45,862 nt of DNA from Acidimicrobiales bacterium. GTDB lineage: Bacteria; Actinomycetota; Acidimicrobiia; Acidimicrobiales; JAHEJN01. Below the pieces are notes generated by a model. It did no database searches. It was not told the origin of the DNA and worked only from the letters and a program-made list of their open reading frames with translations. The stretch's first letter is position 1. Each line of letters starts with the position of its first letter. Shown piece by piece: positions 5,644-14,408 of the stretch. The stretch covers positions 1-45,862 of the forward strand of contig JAHEJN010000020.1 in the NCBI GenBank assembly GCA_024638845.1. Direction: 5' to 3'. Made by a program: the position numbers and the translations under genes.

Positions 5644-7023
5644 TCAGGCGCGGTGCCAGGTGGTGCCGTCGGCGGTGTCCTCGAGGATGATGCCCCGCTC
5701 CGCCAGCTCGTCGCGGATGCGGTCGGCCTCGGCGAAGTCGCGAGCGGCGCGGGCCTGGTTGCGCAGGCCGATCGAGGCGGCGATGCCGTCGGCTTCTCCG
5801 GCTGAGGCCGTGCTGGCTCCGGCGGCGAGGCCGAGCACGTCGGCGAGCTGAAGGGCGGTGTGGCCGGCGGAACCTGCGGTGATGTCGTCGTCGACATCGA
5901 GGGCCTGGTTGGCGCGACGGACCAGACCGAAGACCACCTCGACGGCCGCCGGCGTGGAGAAGTCGTCGTCCATGGCCGCGTCGAACCGGGCGACGGCATC
6001 GGCATCGAGCGGCGCGGCGGCGACATCGAGCCCGGCTGCTGCGAGGCGTCGGTGCATGCTGTCGAGTCGTTTCAGCCCCTCGGCCGCAGCAACGAGCGCG
6101 TCGTGGCCGATCTCCATCGTGCGTCGGTAGTGCGTCTGGAGCATCAGCAGGCGCACCGCTCGCGGCGCGTGATGGTCGAGCAGCTCGGCGAGGGTGGTGA
6201 AGTTGCCGAGACTCTTCGACATCTTCTCGCCGTCGACGTTGACCATCCCGTTGTGCAGCCAGTACCGCGCGAAGCGGTGGCCGCTCGCGTCGGCCTGGGC
6301 GAGCTCGTTCTCGTGGTGGGGGAAGACCAGATCGTCGCCGCCACCGTGGATGTCGAAGCCGTCGCCGAGGATCGACAACGACATGGCAACGCATTCGGTG
6401 TGCCAGCCCGGCCGGCCGTTACCCCACGGTGTGGGCCACGACGGTTCGCCGGGCTTGGCCGACTTCCACAGGGCGAAGTCGAGGGGTGACCGCTTGCCCT
6501 CCTCGATCTCGACCCGCTGGCCGGCGCCTTCGGCGAGCTCGTCGCGACTGCGACCGACGAGCTGTCCGTACTCGTCGGCGGCCGACGTGTCGAAGTAGAC
6601 GCCCTTGCCCTCGATGACGTAGGCCGCGTCGTGCTGGAACAGCTCGGTGATCGTGGCGATCATGCCCTCGACGAACTCGGTGGCGCGGGGGCTGAGATCG
6701 GGGCGGGCGATGCCGAGGCGATCCATCTCGCGGTAGTAGACGTCGGTGAACTCGGCGGCGACGTCGGGCTCGGTGCGCCCCTCTTCGGCCGCCCGCCCGA
6801 TGATCTTGTCGTCGATGTCGGTGATGTTGGCCACGTAGGTGACCTCGAAACCGGCGTGAGCCAGATAGCGGCGCATGACGTCGAACACCACCTCGCGGCG
6901 AGCGTGGCCGACGTGCGGGGTGTCGTACACCGTGGGACCGCACACGTACATCGACACCCGGCCCGGTTCGCGGGGCTCGAAGGGCACCTTGCGGCGCTGG
7001 AGGTTGTCGTGGACGTGCAGCAC
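5644..7023 (-). CDS. cysS: Cysteinyl-tRNA synthetase
   Basis: This class I aminoacyl-tRNA synthetase charges tRNA-Cys. At 459 residues it has normal length. The HIGH-type motif is in [18 protein letters not shown] is the second ATP-binding motif, and the zinc site is built from Cys28 (VCGPTVYD), the GWHTECVAM Cys and FPHHENE. It is not the close paralogue MshC of mycothiol synthesis, which lacks the long anticodon-binding C-terminal region present here. The GTG start at 7023 lies six bases after a TAGCCT -10 box, implying a leaderless message. Confidence 0.97.
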
Positions 7024-10221: not shown

Positions 10222-12246
10222 TCAGATCGGTTCGACCACGATGGCTTCGATGGCTGGTATCGCCAGACCGTCGATCAGCATCTGCCGGTCGCCGGTGGCG
10301 GAGACGAGAATCACGATGGGGGCCAGCTCGGGGCCCTGTTCGACCCACAGATCGAGCGTGAAGTCGGCGGGTGACGAGCCGACGAGGTGGCGCCACGAGC
10401 GCCCACCGATCTCGGCAGGGTCTTCCTCGGTGATCGTCATGTCGAGCTGGTCGCCCACGACAGAAGCGAGCTGATCGGCTATGAAGGCCGGTCCTCCCAG
10501 CTGCACGATGGCCGTCTCGTCGGTGATCGACGCACTGCGGCTCGACTGGATTCCGGTGGCGTCGGCCGTCCAGCCCACCGGCCGAACGCTCGAGAGGCTG
10601 ACGCCGAAGTCGGCGATGTCGACCGAATAGGGCTCGAGCTCGATCGACTCGATGGGGACGGCAAGGAAGGCCGGCGGTTCGAGTCGGTCGACGCAGGAGA
10701 TGTCCAGGGTGTCGGGCTCGACGATGAAGGCAGCCGCGATCTGCATGCCACATGCATCACTCGTCACTCCGTGGGCGAGCGTCGGGAACGTGACCACTCG
10801 GGCGTTGTCGAGCTGGGTCGCGGCCTGCTCGGCCCACTCGGGTGGCGTCACCGGGTCGAAGTAGCCGGCGAGCAGCAGCGTGGGGATCGACCCGGTGACC
10901 GGTTCGTTCTGGCTGGCCGGTGCCTGTCCGGCCGGCCACGCCTCGCACACCTCGAAGGCGAAGGAGCCGACGTTCTCGGAGGTCTCCAGTGATCGTTCCC
11001 AGAGGACGTCGGTGGGCTGGGCGGCGTCGACCGCCTCGGGGGAGCTGAACGGCACCTCGTCGTGGCAGGCGAAGGAGAACAGCAGCCCGGGCGTGAAGAA
11101 CTCCTCGTTGGTGGCATCGAGACTCAGGAAGCTCTCGGCCACGTCGACGCTGCCGGCCTCGAGGTCGACGATCAGCTCCGGGAGATCGGTGAAGGCGATC
11201 GGGTCGTACAACGCACCGAAGACCATGACGAGCAGTGCGTCGCCGTCGATGAGCACGTCGTCGGTGCTTCCGGTGAGGAAGTTGGTTGCGGTCGCGGGCA
11301 GGGGATCGGCCTCGAGGCTCTCGTAGAGGGCGCGGAATCGCTCGTCGAGGAACGGGAAGCGACCGGCGCAGTCGGTGTCGGCCGCGCAAGCTGCCACCAC
11401 CCGTTCGTAAGAGCGGATCAGCGACGCCTGGGTATCGGCGGTGGCGTCGACCTCGGGAGGGAGCGTCGAGTCGAGAACCGCCGTCCGAACGATGTCGGGG
11501 TGGCGCTTCATCACTTCGAGCCCGAGCCGCGTGCCGTAGCTGATGCCGAAGAGATCGAGCTGATCGACGCCGAGGGCGTGCCGAATCCGGTCGACGTCGT
11601 CGGCGTTGTTCGCCGTGTTGTACTGCCCGAGATCGATCCCGGCGAGGCTGAGCCGCTCGTGGCACGCCGTCAACCCGTCGAGAACGTTCTGTCGGTAGGT
11701 GTCGACGTCGAGGTCGGGTTGGAGGGCCGCCGCGTCGTAGACGGCATCGACCTCGGGGCAGTCGAGCCGGGGCAACGATTGGCCGACACCCCGTTGATCG
11801 AACACGACGACGTCGGCGTGGTCGAGAAGCGGTTCGTATCGGTCGGCGTAGACGAACGGAATGGTCTCGAGCGCGTGGCCGCCGGGACCGCCCTCGAGAT
11901 AGATGGTGGGTGTTGCTGCCGGGTTGTCGGCGGTGCTGACCAGCACCGCCACGGCCAAGTCGACGGTGCCCGTCGACGGATCGTCGTAGTCCTCGGGCAC
12001 GCTCACGGTGCCGCATTCGATCGTCGCGTCGCCGGGCACATCGAACGGGCACGGGCCGGGAACGAAGGTCCCGGCGAGCTCGGCCGAACCCGGAGGCTCG
12101 GATTCGGAACTGTCGGCGGATGGGTCCGTCGTGGCTTCGGGCTCGGGTATCGCCAGGTCGTAGTCGGGGCTGCACGCACCTGCCACCGAGACGGTGATGG
12201 CCATGGCGCCGAGGAGCCGCAGGACGTGCCGCCCGAGGGAAGTCAT
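10222..12246 (-). CDS. Secreted alpha/beta-hydrolase lipoprotein, TAP-like (tripeptidyl aminopeptidase family)
   Basis: A 674-residue predicted lipoprotein. With the start at 12246 the N-terminus is MTSLGRHVLRLLGAMAITVS followed by the lipobox VAGAC. The catalytic part has the family order: YLEGGPGG (oxyanion region), FDQRGVGQS, the nucleophile elbow GISYGTR, and a late region with LLAGYFDPVTPPEWA (Asp) and LAHGVT (His), matching the TAP C-terminal domain. Streptomyces and mycobacterial relatives are exported peptidases or esterases. About 150 further residues after the catalytic domain are not explained by the family and may be a binding domain. A TACCCT -10 box six bases before the ATG indicates a leaderless transcript. 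Confidence 0.87.
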   Translation of the reverse strand: MTSLGRHVLRLLGAMAITVSVAGACSPDYDLAIPEPEATTDPSADSSESEPPGSAELAGTFVPGPCPFDVPGDATIECGTVSVPEDYDDPSTGTVDLAVAVLVSTADNPAATPTIYLEGGPGGHALETIPFVYADRYEPLLDHADVVVFDQRGVGQSLPRLDCPEVDAVYDAAALQPDLDVDTYRQNVLDGLTACHERLSLAGIDLGQYNTANNADDVDRIRHALGVDQLDLFGISYGTRLGLEVMKRHPDIVRTAVLDSTLPPEVDATADTQASLIRSYERVVAACAADTDCAGRFPFLDERFRALYESLEADPLPATATNFLTGSTDDVLIDGDALLVMVFGALYDPIAFTDLPELIVDLEAGSVDVAESFLSLDATNEEFFTPGLLFSFACHDEVPFSSPEAVDAAQPTDVLWERSLETSENVGSFAFEVCEAWPAGQAPASQNEPVTGSIPTLLLAGYFDPVTPPEWAEQAATQLDNARVVTFPTLAHGVTSDACGMQIAAAFIVEPDTLDISCVDRLEPPAFLAVPIESIELEPYSVDIADFGVSLSSVRPVGWTADATGIQSSRSASITDETAIVQLGGPAFIADQLASVVGDQLDMTITEEDPAEIGGRSWRHLVGSSPADFTLDLWVEQGPELAPIVILVSATGDRQMLIDGLAIPAIEAIVVEPI

Positions 12247-12252
12247 GGGCGC

Positions 12253-12258
12253 AGGGTA
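12253..12258 (-). promoter_or_regulatory. Leaderless -10 box for the TAP-like gene
   Basis: TACCCT on the minus strand, six bases (GCGCCC) before the ATG at 12246. It also supports this start codon, which yields a standard lipoprotein signal, over the upstream in-frame ATG. Confidence 0.45.
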
Positions 12259-12408
12259 GCGAGGGAGACGGGCCACGCTGTCGCGCATCGACCCGCCGCC
12301 GAAGCAACGGGCCGATGGCACTGGAGGGGAACCCGCCTCACCGAATGGCTCGGCTGGTTGTCCCTTCGACTCGCCAGGTTGCAGTGCGGTTACATTCAGA
12401 CGTCGCGA

Positions 12409-12439: not shown

Positions 12440-13087
12440 TCAGCCCTTGGCCGCCTTGCGTTGCCGGGTCGACTCGAGGTCGGGCTCGACCAATCGGTCG
12501 CGTTTCAGTTCGCTGAAGTTGTCGTAACGGACGAGCCACGACACGTGCTGCCAGAGCGCACGTGCCTCGTCGGGACCGGCGGTGGGATTGGAGATCACCG
12601 GGCCGAAGATGGCGGGCCCGTCGCCGCCGTCGAGCACGATGGCCGGGACGCCGAAAGCAGCCGTACGTTCGACCAGTGCCTCGTGGTCGGCCAGCAACCG
12701 ATCGAAGGTGCCACGATCGGTCAGGGCATCGGTGAGCCGGTCCGACGGCAGGCCGGCGGCGGAGAGCGCGTCGCGAATGACCTGGTGGTCGTCGAGGTCG
12801 AGCCCGGCGTGGTGTCGGGCCGCACCAAGGGCATGGTAGAAGCGCCCGAGGGCCTCGTTTCCGTCGGTGTCGCGCACCAGCACACAGGTACGGAGCGCAG
12901 CCACTCCACGGGCCGACTCGACATCGAGGTCGGCCATGTCGCCGTGGTGGTTCTGGATAGCCAGCGAGAACACGTCCCACTCGACCTCGAGATCGCCCAG
13001 CTCGACGAGCTGTTCGACCCATATCGAGGTCTGGAAACACCATGGTCAGATGGGGTCGAAATGGAAGTCGATCTTCTCGGTCGGCAT
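12440..13087 (-). CDS. Selenoprotein-type mycothiol-dependent nitroreductase (Rv2466c family, DsbA fold), Sec at UGA codon 14
   Basis: Read through UGA at 13046-13048 the gene encodes 215 residues. The start is [13 protein letters not shown], then UGA, then [14 protein letters not shown]. The Rv2466c family has FDPLCPWC here, so UGA replaces the first, nucleophilic Cys of CPWC. The resolving Cys17 is kept. Downstream, [11 protein letters not shown] (cis-Pro), FGPVISNP and FSELKRDR match the family, and the whole length is as expected. M. tuberculosis Rv2466c uses mycothiol to reduce disulfides and nitro-prodrugs. A hairpin at 13013-13036 fits a SECIS. The normal stop is also UGA (12440-12442). 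TAGGGT lies seven bases before the ATG. The first ATG after the UGA, at 12973, would omit the active site. Nonsense mutation or sequencing error are the alternatives. Confidence 0.85.
13013..13036 (-). promoter_or_regulatory. Candidate bacterial SECIS element
   Basis: Starting 10 bases after the UGA, TTC pairs with GAA and GACC with GGTC, separated by a two-base CA bulge. The apical loop is TCGATATG, or CGATAT if the T-G wobble closes, with G among its first two bases. Stem, loop size and distance fit the bacterial SECIS consensus (loop 16-37 bases after UGA). A second hairpin, CAGCTC-GTC-GAGCTG in mRNA sense at 12998-13012, has a GU-containing loop but lies about 40 bases from the UGA. Structure inferred by eye. 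Confidence 0.5.
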
Positions 13088-13094
13088 CGCACCG

Positions 13095-13100
13095 ACCCTA
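13095..13100 (-). promoter_or_regulatory. Leaderless -10 box of the predicted selenoprotein gene
   Basis: TAGGGT on the minus strand is exactly seven bases before the ATG at 13087, the same arrangement as at several other genes here. It independently supports translation starting upstream of the in-frame UGA. Confidence 0.5.
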
Positions 13101-13202: not shown

Positions 13203-13439
13203 ATGTCGAAGATCTGTCAGGTAACCGGACGCAAGCCGGCGTTCGGCAACAACGTGTCCCACTCGCACCGCAAGACGCGGCGTCGTTGGGATCCCAACAT
13301 CCAGAACCACCGTTTCTGGGTTCCCTCCGAGCGGCGCTGGATCAACCTCACCGTCTCGGCCAAGGGCATCAAGACGATCAACAAGCACGGCATCGAGAAG
13401 GTGCTGGCCGACATGCGCAAGCGTGGGGAGAAGGTCTGA
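13203..13439 (+). CDS. rpmB: 50S ribosomal protein L28
   Basis: A 78-residue basic protein of the large ribosomal subunit. It begins [21 protein letters not shown], the L28 signature, followed by [11 protein letters not shown] and a [10 protein letters not shown] stretch. Only one cysteine is present, so this is the zinc-free form. GAGGAAAG lies before the ATG. The TGA overlaps the ATG of rpmG (TGATG), which couples the two ribosomal protein genes. Confidence 0.97.
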
Positions 13440-13606: not shown

Positions 13607-13628
13607 CTCTTCCCGTTAGGGAGTGCTG

Positions 13629-14408
13629 ATGCCCTCGATCGACGACGGGCGTGAGATCCTGTCGGCGGTTCTGGTCACCGACGATCCGCGTCCGGGGCTG
13701 TGGGAGTACGTCGACTCCGGTCTGGCCGACGTCTTCGTACCCGAGCTGCCGGCGCTTCGCCTCGAGCAGGATCCGATCCACCGACACAAGGACGTGCTGG
13801 CGCACACCATCGCGGTGACGGCCCAGACGCGGGCCGATCTGAGGCTCCGCCTGGCTGCGCTGTTCCACGATGTCGGCAAGCCCCGCACGCGGCGTATCGA
13901 CGACGAGGGTGTGACGTTCCGTCATCACGAGGTCGTCGGGGCCAAGATGACGCGGAAGCGGCTGCGCGAGCTCGGCTACGACGACGACGTCGTGGACGAC
14001 GTGACCGAGCTGGTCAGGTTGTCGGGACGGTTCAAGGGATTTGCAGCCGGCTGGAGCGACTCGGCCGTACGGCGGTACGCCCGCGACGCCGGGCACCTCC
14101 TCGGCTTGTTGAACGAGCTGGTCCGGGCCGACTGCACCACGCGACACGAACACAAACGGGTGGAGCTCCACGGCCACGTCGACGAGCTCGAAGCTCGTAT
14201 CCATGCCCTGGCCGAGGAGGACCGACGCAATGCCGAGCGACCTCTGCTCGATGGCGGGGCGGTCATGGCCCACCTCGGGATCGAACCGGGTCCCGACGTG
14301 GGTTCGGCCCTGAAGTTCCTGCTCGCGCTGAAGCGCGCCGAACCCGATCTCGACGAGGCAGCCACCACTGCTCGCCTCGACGAGTGGTGGGCGGCCCGCA
14401 GCCGCTGA
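13629..14408 (+). CDS. HD-domain protein related to the C-terminal half of CCA-adding enzymes
   Basis: A 259-residue protein. HRHKDVLAHTIAV, LAALFHDVGKPRTRRI and FRHHEVVGAKM form an HD phosphohydrolase motif set of the kind found after the nucleotidyltransferase domain in CCA-adding enzymes. The later helices (LLNELVRADC, ALEEDRRNAERPLLDGGAVM-like region) fit that RNA-binding tail. The nucleotidyltransferase head is missing, so it cannot add CCA; a phosphodiesterase or phosphatase role is inference. The ATG at 13629 is preferred to a GTG at 13623 because TTAGGGAG overlaps the latter. It probably belongs to the rpmB-rpmG operon and ends three bases before the convergent crotonase gene. Confidence 0.78.
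   Translation: MPSIDDGREILSAVLVTDDPRPGLWEYVDSGLADVFVPELPALRLEQDPIHRHKDVLAHTIAVTAQTRADLRLRLAALFHDVGKPRTRRIDDEGVTFRHHEVVGAKMTRKRLRELGYDDDVVDDVTELVRLSGRFKGFAAGWSDSAVRRYARDAGHLLGLLNELVRADCTTRHEHKRVELHGHVDELEARIHALAEEDRRNAERPLLDGGAVMAHLGIEPGPDVGSALKFLLALKRAEPDLDEAATTARLDEWWAARSR

Follow-up and report, generated by a model that had tools for sequence, protein, structure and literature searches.

The window, by which we mean the whole stretch of 45,862 nucleotides that was analyzed, contained on its minus strand a single frame running from position 13087 to 12440, in which the sole internal stop was a TGA at codon 14 and which ended with the residues RQRKAAKG and a terminal TGA at 12442-12440. The frame, with its UGA at codon 14 and open to 12440, had been proposed in an initial annotation of the window, and the same frame was recovered here as Rv2466c-like by the Pfam profile PF22234. 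The features of the locus are as follows.

12440..13087, minus strand: predicted selenoprotein gene for a thioredoxin-fold reductase of the Rv2466c-like family (PF22234) in a selenocysteine (Sec) version, 215 amino acids long with Sec14, assigned by sequence, profile and fold; the TGA at its end is the stop
13046..13048, minus strand: TGA codon 14, very probably read as selenocysteine, aligned with the first (nucleophilic) Cys of the CPWC motif in Rv2466c
13037..13039, minus strand: TGT codon 17, for the putative resolving Cys in UPWC, placed by alignment
13011..13039, minus strand: candidate SECIS hairpin of 5 bp, a 3-nt bulge, 5 bp and the loop CGAUAU, with a G as the second loop base, from single-strand folding
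13095..13100, minus strand: TAGGGT, a -10-like box of the type TANNNT, 7 nt before the ATG, from the sequence upstream of the start
13203..13415, plus strand: rpmB (ribosomal protein L28), a divergent neighbor
13623..14408, plus strand: gene for an HD-domain protein

The read-through protein matched the Pfam families PF22234 (Rv2466c-like) with 92.3 bits (cut-off 27) and PF01323 (DSBA) with 49.5 bits (cut-off 25.6), and a search of NCBIfam with the same protein gave no match at E 0.001. Its sequence matches in the PDB were 4zil, 4nxi and 5xur (best E 2.4e-26), with Rv2466c aligned to residues 6-205, and in this alignment codon 14 faced the first Cys of the Rv2466c CPWC motif. An AlphaFold model, in which Cys was modeled for Sec, had a mean pLDDT of 88, and its ten best fold matches in the PDB by Foldseek were Rv2466c and the M. 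leprae homolog, with E 3.4e-12 and TM 0.71/0.72 for 4zil_A. The identity to Rv2466c in the Foldseek alignments was 27-34%, or about one third. The active site had at the outset been predicted to read UPWC, and this agreed with the alignment, in that the U coincided with the nucleophilic Cys of CPWC and Cys17 was kept. In Rv2466c, the nucleophile is Cys19, the resolving residue is Cys22 and the enzyme is reduced by mycothiol, according to the parts of PMC8280269 and PMC11841060 that were available. Sec14 stands in place of Cys19 in the alignment.

Members of the family were found in 380 of the 397 genomes covered by a search at the level of the order. Close orthologs, defined by a best E of 2e-50 or less, were present in 37 of these, to which we added G085, whose match is only partial owing to an insert and which the tree places in the g37 clade, for a total of 38 genomes. 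Codon 14 was TGA in 26 of them (G000, which is the genome of the window, G052, G056, G266, G157, G207, G097, G129, G228, G223, G149, G347, G281, G331, G363, G314, G200, G298, G175, G379, G395, G243, G118, G262, G004, and G085) and TGC or TGT in 12 (G057, G162, G067, G232, G030, G305, G270, G288, G187, G012, G038, and G342). The genomes with TGA span the families f1, f56, f36, and f5 and six genera, and a pattern of this kind lies far outside what chance would give. At the level of loci, where some genomes are counted twice, 129 of the 130 loci from L017 to L146 covered codon 14 (L054 did not reach it), with TGA in 35, TGC in 73, TGT in 21 and no other codon in any. The 35 rows with TGA continued for 168 to 224 codons without a second in-frame stop, one of them (L018) leaving its contig, so that random stops elsewhere in close relatives, which had been named beforehand as the mark of a pseudogene, were seen in none of them. 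The flanks of the codon, F.FDP before and PW after, were kept in Sec and Cys forms alike.

In the rows read, the first active-site residue was always Cys or Sec, which answers the question raised in the initial annotation of whether position 14 is Cys or UGA in the family. The second active-site Cys was often replaced by Ala or Ser in Cys homologs (CPWA, CPWS; L162-L191 and others). Since the first residue is invariant in this sense and the second is often Ala or Ser, the family tolerates a missing resolving residue. It was also noted that one Cys-form ortholog, L165 (G568:C34), contained a TAA 68 codons past the active-site Cys and is a broken or misassembled copy, and that the genome of the window carried at least two other Rv2466c-like genes with no internal stop (C36:4101-4733 and C45:391-960, with 140 and 131 bits).

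A phylum-wide search of 396 genomes returned 30 loci, of which the window alone had TGA at codon 14 and 29, L165 among them, had TGC or TGT. Ten distant homologs flagged for a stop (L055, L056, and L058-L065) were read. Nine of these carried Cys in this position, and where a stop showed in them, it was located C-terminally. The tenth, L063 (G239:C46), is a distant Rv2466c-like paralog (PF22234, 147 bits) with UPWT in place of CPWC, and probably represents a second exchange between Cys and Sec, in which Thr occupies the place of the resolving Cys. Additional distant Sec forms may exist among the stop-flagged matches beyond these ten. A contig scan of relatives kept 80 of 250, and one of its two patterns demanded a Cys codon at the site, so that its proportions of Sec and Cys forms lean to Cys.

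The genome of the window (3.70 Mb in 220 contigs, 96.87% complete) contained the genes for selenocysteine decoding that the initial annotation had suggested searching for, and their absence, named there as an outcome that would count against the reading, was not observed. A tRNA-Sec with a UCA anticodon (66.1 bits) was located on contig C83 together with the adjoining genes selB (280 bits) and selA (378 bits), and selD (365 bits) was found on contig C80 (L156, C80:17000-21000). The selD gene had an in-frame TGA of its own at GAGUACK and is by the same reasoning most likely itself a selenoprotein gene, with a second recoded UGA. Five weaker matches to tRNA-Sec in this genome were Ser, Cys(GCA), and Lys tRNAs. 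The searches for selB and selD covered this genome, whereas tRNA-Sec and selA were surveyed more widely. We found tRNA-Sec in 25 of 27 Sec-form genomes, G239 included, the two lacking it being G266 (76% complete) and G118 (95%), and selA in 25 of 26 Sec-form genomes, counted without G239 and missing from G298; none of the 26 lacked both. Among the 12 Cys-form genomes, 9 had tRNA-Sec and 11 had selA. Taken over both forms, tRNA-Sec was present in 34 of 39 genomes, and selA was found in 56 of the 65 genomes that had been picked by hand from the order. Because most Cys-form genomes carry tRNA-Sec or selA, the machinery fails to separate the Sec forms from the Cys forms, and a loss of Sec decoding does not account for most of the Cys forms.

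To place the Sec and Cys forms relative to each other, we inferred a midpoint-rooted tree from 69 distinct proteins (30 Sec and 39 Cys), consisting of the rows at 38% identity or more and a few named outgroup rows, with duplicates dropped. The tree needed 5 changes between the Sec and Cys labels, and its well-supported branches force at least 2. In the main Sec group (support 90/92), 28 Sec rows from f1, f56, f36, and copies of these were joined by 4 Cys rows, and the Sec row L049 of f5 clustered with Cys rows (support 86/80). The rpmB gene was located near all 14 other Sec loci examined and near none of the 15 Cys loci examined, for which the flanks reached at most 4 kb per side and were often shorter; the gene for the HD-domain protein was present in 13 of those 14 Sec loci. 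In this survey, L152 and L083 represent the same contig, as do L154 and L076. The rpmB neighborhood agrees with a single Sec locus having been inherited vertically.

Other genes beside the Sec gene were less widely shared. A cysS gene (cysteine--tRNA ligase, 477.5 bits) was located on the minus strand of the window at 5644-7023 and, in G157 (L150), at a distance of about 1 kb from the Sec gene, and cysS was not found in the stretches taken from Sec loci other than these two. On contig C54 of G052 there was a cysS-like match, with a C-terminal piece of the Sec gene at the contig end. The minus strand of the window also encoded a sulfatase (PF00884, 7049-8698) and a large alpha/beta hydrolase whose C-terminal part is TAP-like (10222-12321) beside the Sec gene, neither of which had a counterpart in the other Sec loci examined.

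The sequences upstream of the start codons pointed to initiation ahead of the TGA. TANNNT boxes were present in L017, L018 and L049; those of L018 (TAGCGT) and L049 (TATCGT) are comparable to TAGGGT in the window and lie 6 nt ahead of the ATG. Such boxes may be leaderless promoters, with an mRNA starting at the start codon. In the f56 genomes (L019, L022, L026, and their kin), AGGAGG preceded a GTG, TTG, or ATG start located 12-14 codons before the TGA. Given these start signals upstream of the UGA, initiation of translation ahead of this codon is most likely.

A search against Rfam found no SECIS, and the hairpin scan relied on the loop-position and distance rules generally known for SECIS elements. 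Folding energy and a score for SECIS-like hairpins were compared with a null of 300 synonymous-codon shuffles per sequence in a set of 22 Sec sequences and one of 26 Cys sequences, all of them distinct, and neither set had an excess over its shuffles (mean z of +0.47 and -0.34 for the Sec rows, and of -0.19 and -0.06 for the Cys rows). Hairpins obeying the rules were found in 19 of the 22 Sec rows, as compared with 21.5 expected under the synonymous null. For the window itself, a 64-nt fold had a z of -2.68, which carries no weight because three shorter folds were at chance. One Cys-form gene, L088 from a Dormiibacterota MAG, had an unusually strong hairpin right after the Cys codon (z 4.4 for the hairpin score), which could be a relic or could have arisen by chance.

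In the g37 clade, synonymous diversity was 0.116 at codons +4 to +13 after the UGA, as compared with 0.199 thereafter, but other 10-codon intervals were lower still; likewise, 5 scorable codons from +7 to +12 had zero synonymous diversity among the 18 distinct sequences, with other intervals being as conserved. The Sec clade of f56 had the opposite trend, with 0.272 at codons +4 to +13 and 0.212 in the rest. A Cys clade of 12 sequences, 8 of them distinct, served as a contrast and varied at all 5 scorable codons, but was more diverse along the whole gene (0.458, as compared with 0.200). These values hint at constraint after the UGA in the g37 clade only. With no excess over the synonymous null, other intervals of the gene equally conserved and an opposite trend in the f56 Sec clade, the SECIS of this gene is unproved. 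Conserved guanosines in the loops of bacterial SECIS elements are mentioned in a figure legend in PMC1088965, and some known selenoprotein genes deviate from the standard SECIS model according to the portion available of a review (PMC9312934).

We consider that UGA codon 14 is very probably decoded as selenocysteine in this Rv2466c-like family, judging from the gene sequences, and, the SECIS apart, the support is as strong as sequence data can offer. The exact alternation of TGA and Cys codons, combined with a tRNA-Sec(UCA), selA, selB, and a selD of the Sec type, makes this the only credible explanation. The TGA could in principle be a nonsense mutation or a miscalled TGC or TGT, from which it differs by one base, in an assembly of 220 contigs and a family in which broken copies exist (L165 in G568, with its TAA 68 codons past the Cys). 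However, such events do not yield a codon-exact pattern of TGA and Cys, and here the TGA was at exactly the same position in 26 genomes of four families, with the rest of the frames open and conserved, so that we reject a pseudogene or an assembly error as extremely improbable. Bacterial opal tRNAs of other identity exist, and the alternation with Cys taken alone would also be compatible with UGA being read as Cys by an opal tRNA-Cys; a reading as Trp belongs to the same class. This is very improbable in a genome with selA, selB, and a Sec-type selD, where, of the six matches to tRNA-Sec, tRNA-Sec itself was alone in having a UCA anticodon, the tRNA-Cys among them had the anticodon GCA, and UGA also serves as the stop of the same gene.

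A start after the UGA would shorten the protein by its active site and make the upstream part a leftover. The first ATG after the UGA had been placed at 12973, but this position is a GTG and the first in-frame ATG lies at about 12937; the claim that such a start would cost the protein both active-site residues held for either codon. Although both could serve as starts, F.FDP before the UGA and PW after it are conserved in Sec and Cys forms and the start signals lie upstream, and we regard a downstream start as scarcely credible. Hence, in the preferred reading, the gene would be intact, with codon 14 read as Sec by the SelB/tRNA-Sec system and the second UGA serving as an ordinary stop.

The cofactor of the product is less certain than the decoding. 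Mycothiol is the actinobacterial thiol that takes the role of glutathione, and the initial annotation described the product as a mycothiol-dependent enzyme. The genome of the window contained an MshC-like gene that scored about 421-423 bits to MshC (cut-off 485.1) and about 344 bits to cysS (343.6, just passing the cut-off of 340), whereas the separate, proper cysS in the window scored 296 bits to MshC and 478 bits to cysS. It also contained an MshA-like gene (375 bits, cut-off 462.5, next best 203) and a full-length gene resembling that for mycothione reductase (Mtr; 576 bits, cut-off 635.65, next best 226). The search, which covered MshC, MshA, and Mtr, thus gave genes resembling all three, each with a score below the curated cut-off, and a dependence on mycothiol is plausible. 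Given Sec, the product could instead be a general disulfide reductase reduced by thioredoxin, or a scavenger of peroxides or electrophiles. The loss of the resolving Cys in several Cys homologs (CPWA, CPWS), the msh and mtr matches under the curated cut-offs, including an MshC-like gene that passes the cysS cut-off too, and the low identity to Rv2466c (27-34% by Foldseek) would suit such a role. The MshC-like gene nevertheless fits MshC better than cysS (421 vs 344 bits) and exists beside a proper cysS, and entries for Rv2466c head the matches by sequence as well as by fold. We regard a role apart from mycothiol as rather unlikely, and a mycothiol step in the reaction of the product as fairly probable.

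In the mechanism that we propose, the product would be a thioredoxin-fold reductase of the Rv2466c/Mrx2 family of DsbA-like mycoredoxins, with Sec for the nucleophilic Cys in a U-P-W-C motif. In the most likely cycle, the selenolate would attack an oxidized substrate, such as a disulfide, a mixed disulfide with mycothiol or some other electrophile, to form a selenosulfide or selenenic acid. Either Cys17 or mycothiol would resolve this intermediate, and the enzyme would be regenerated by mycothiol, mycothione reductase and NADPH. We infer the actual insertion of Sec, the SECIS, the dependence on mycothiol and the substrate. In its broadest form, the proposal is of a Sec branch of mycothiol-dependent DsbA-like mycoredoxins, that is fixed across four families within a single actinobacterial order (with records under Acidimicrobiales and Candidatus Poriferisocius), and of a separate second Cys/Sec exchange in the distant paralog L063 (UPWT), to which we give slightly more than even credence.

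If true, replacement of the nucleophilic Cys by Sec in an enzyme of the Rv2466c type would link selenium chemistry with mycothiol. The order moreover offers natural Sec and Cys pairs of one enzyme, and 9 of the 12 genomes with the Cys form have tRNA-Sec all the same, so that the benefit of Sec can be asked. Annotation easily overlooks selenoproteins by mistaking the Sec codon for a stop, and the lack of an NCBIfam match suggests that automatic pipelines will probably truncate the protein encoded at 12440-13087.

DsbA-like proteins with Sec are known from several surveys, which we could compare by description and from the parts available. The Sargasso Sea set contained 9 DsbA-like UxxC sequences under COG2761 (PMC1088965), the GOS set contained DsbA 1 and 2 with UxxC and DsbA 3 with UxxV (PMC2398784), and two table columns in PMC5029168 give 45 DsbA-like selenoproteins in 41 organisms. 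A 2026 review of 119 selenoprotein families (PMC13188914) includes, in the part accessible, a "DsbA-like protein form 1, PF01323, UxxC" and a form 2, and its Table 1, as available, has no entry for PF22234, Rv2466c, or mycothiol. Nor was a selenoprotein of the Rv2466c or mycothiol type found in the searchable literature, including the accessible text of PMC9312934, PMC12013277, PMC1794560, and PMC5029168, with supplements, subscription papers and preprints outside the scope of this search. Some published DsbA-like selenoproteins, compared by description only, may belong to the Rv2466c-like Sec clade; NIP15863.1 is one published representative of form 1. The novelty is at the level of the subfamily, as a Sec variant of Rv2466c/Mrx2, whose superfamily already has known Sec members.

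The closest known system is Rv2466c/Mrx2 of Mycobacterium tuberculosis (PF22234), a mycothiol-dependent reductase and nitroreductase with CPWC, which belongs to the same family and shares with the protein described here the predicted fold, the C/U-P-W-C motif and a conserved GVP loop. It differs in having Cys19 where we predict Sec and is about one third identical to a protein known from its sequence and a predicted model. The DsbA-like form 1 selenoproteins (PF01323, UxxC; Sargasso Sea 2005, GOS DsbA 1-2) share with the UPWC protein, which scores 49.5 bits to PF01323, a UxxC motif in the thioredoxin fold of the DsbA superfamily. The 2005 set was filed under COG2761, whereas PF22234 is the best match here; the two are set apart by the descriptions available, and an overlap, for example with the GOS "DsbA 2", is possible. 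Finally, NCgl2478 and NCgl2339 of Corynebacterium glutamicum, in the DsbA-Mrx1 cluster, are likewise mycothiol-linked DsbA-like reductases (PMC8280269, in the part available), but these are Cys enzymes with CPFC, in contrast to the predicted UPWC of the protein in the window.
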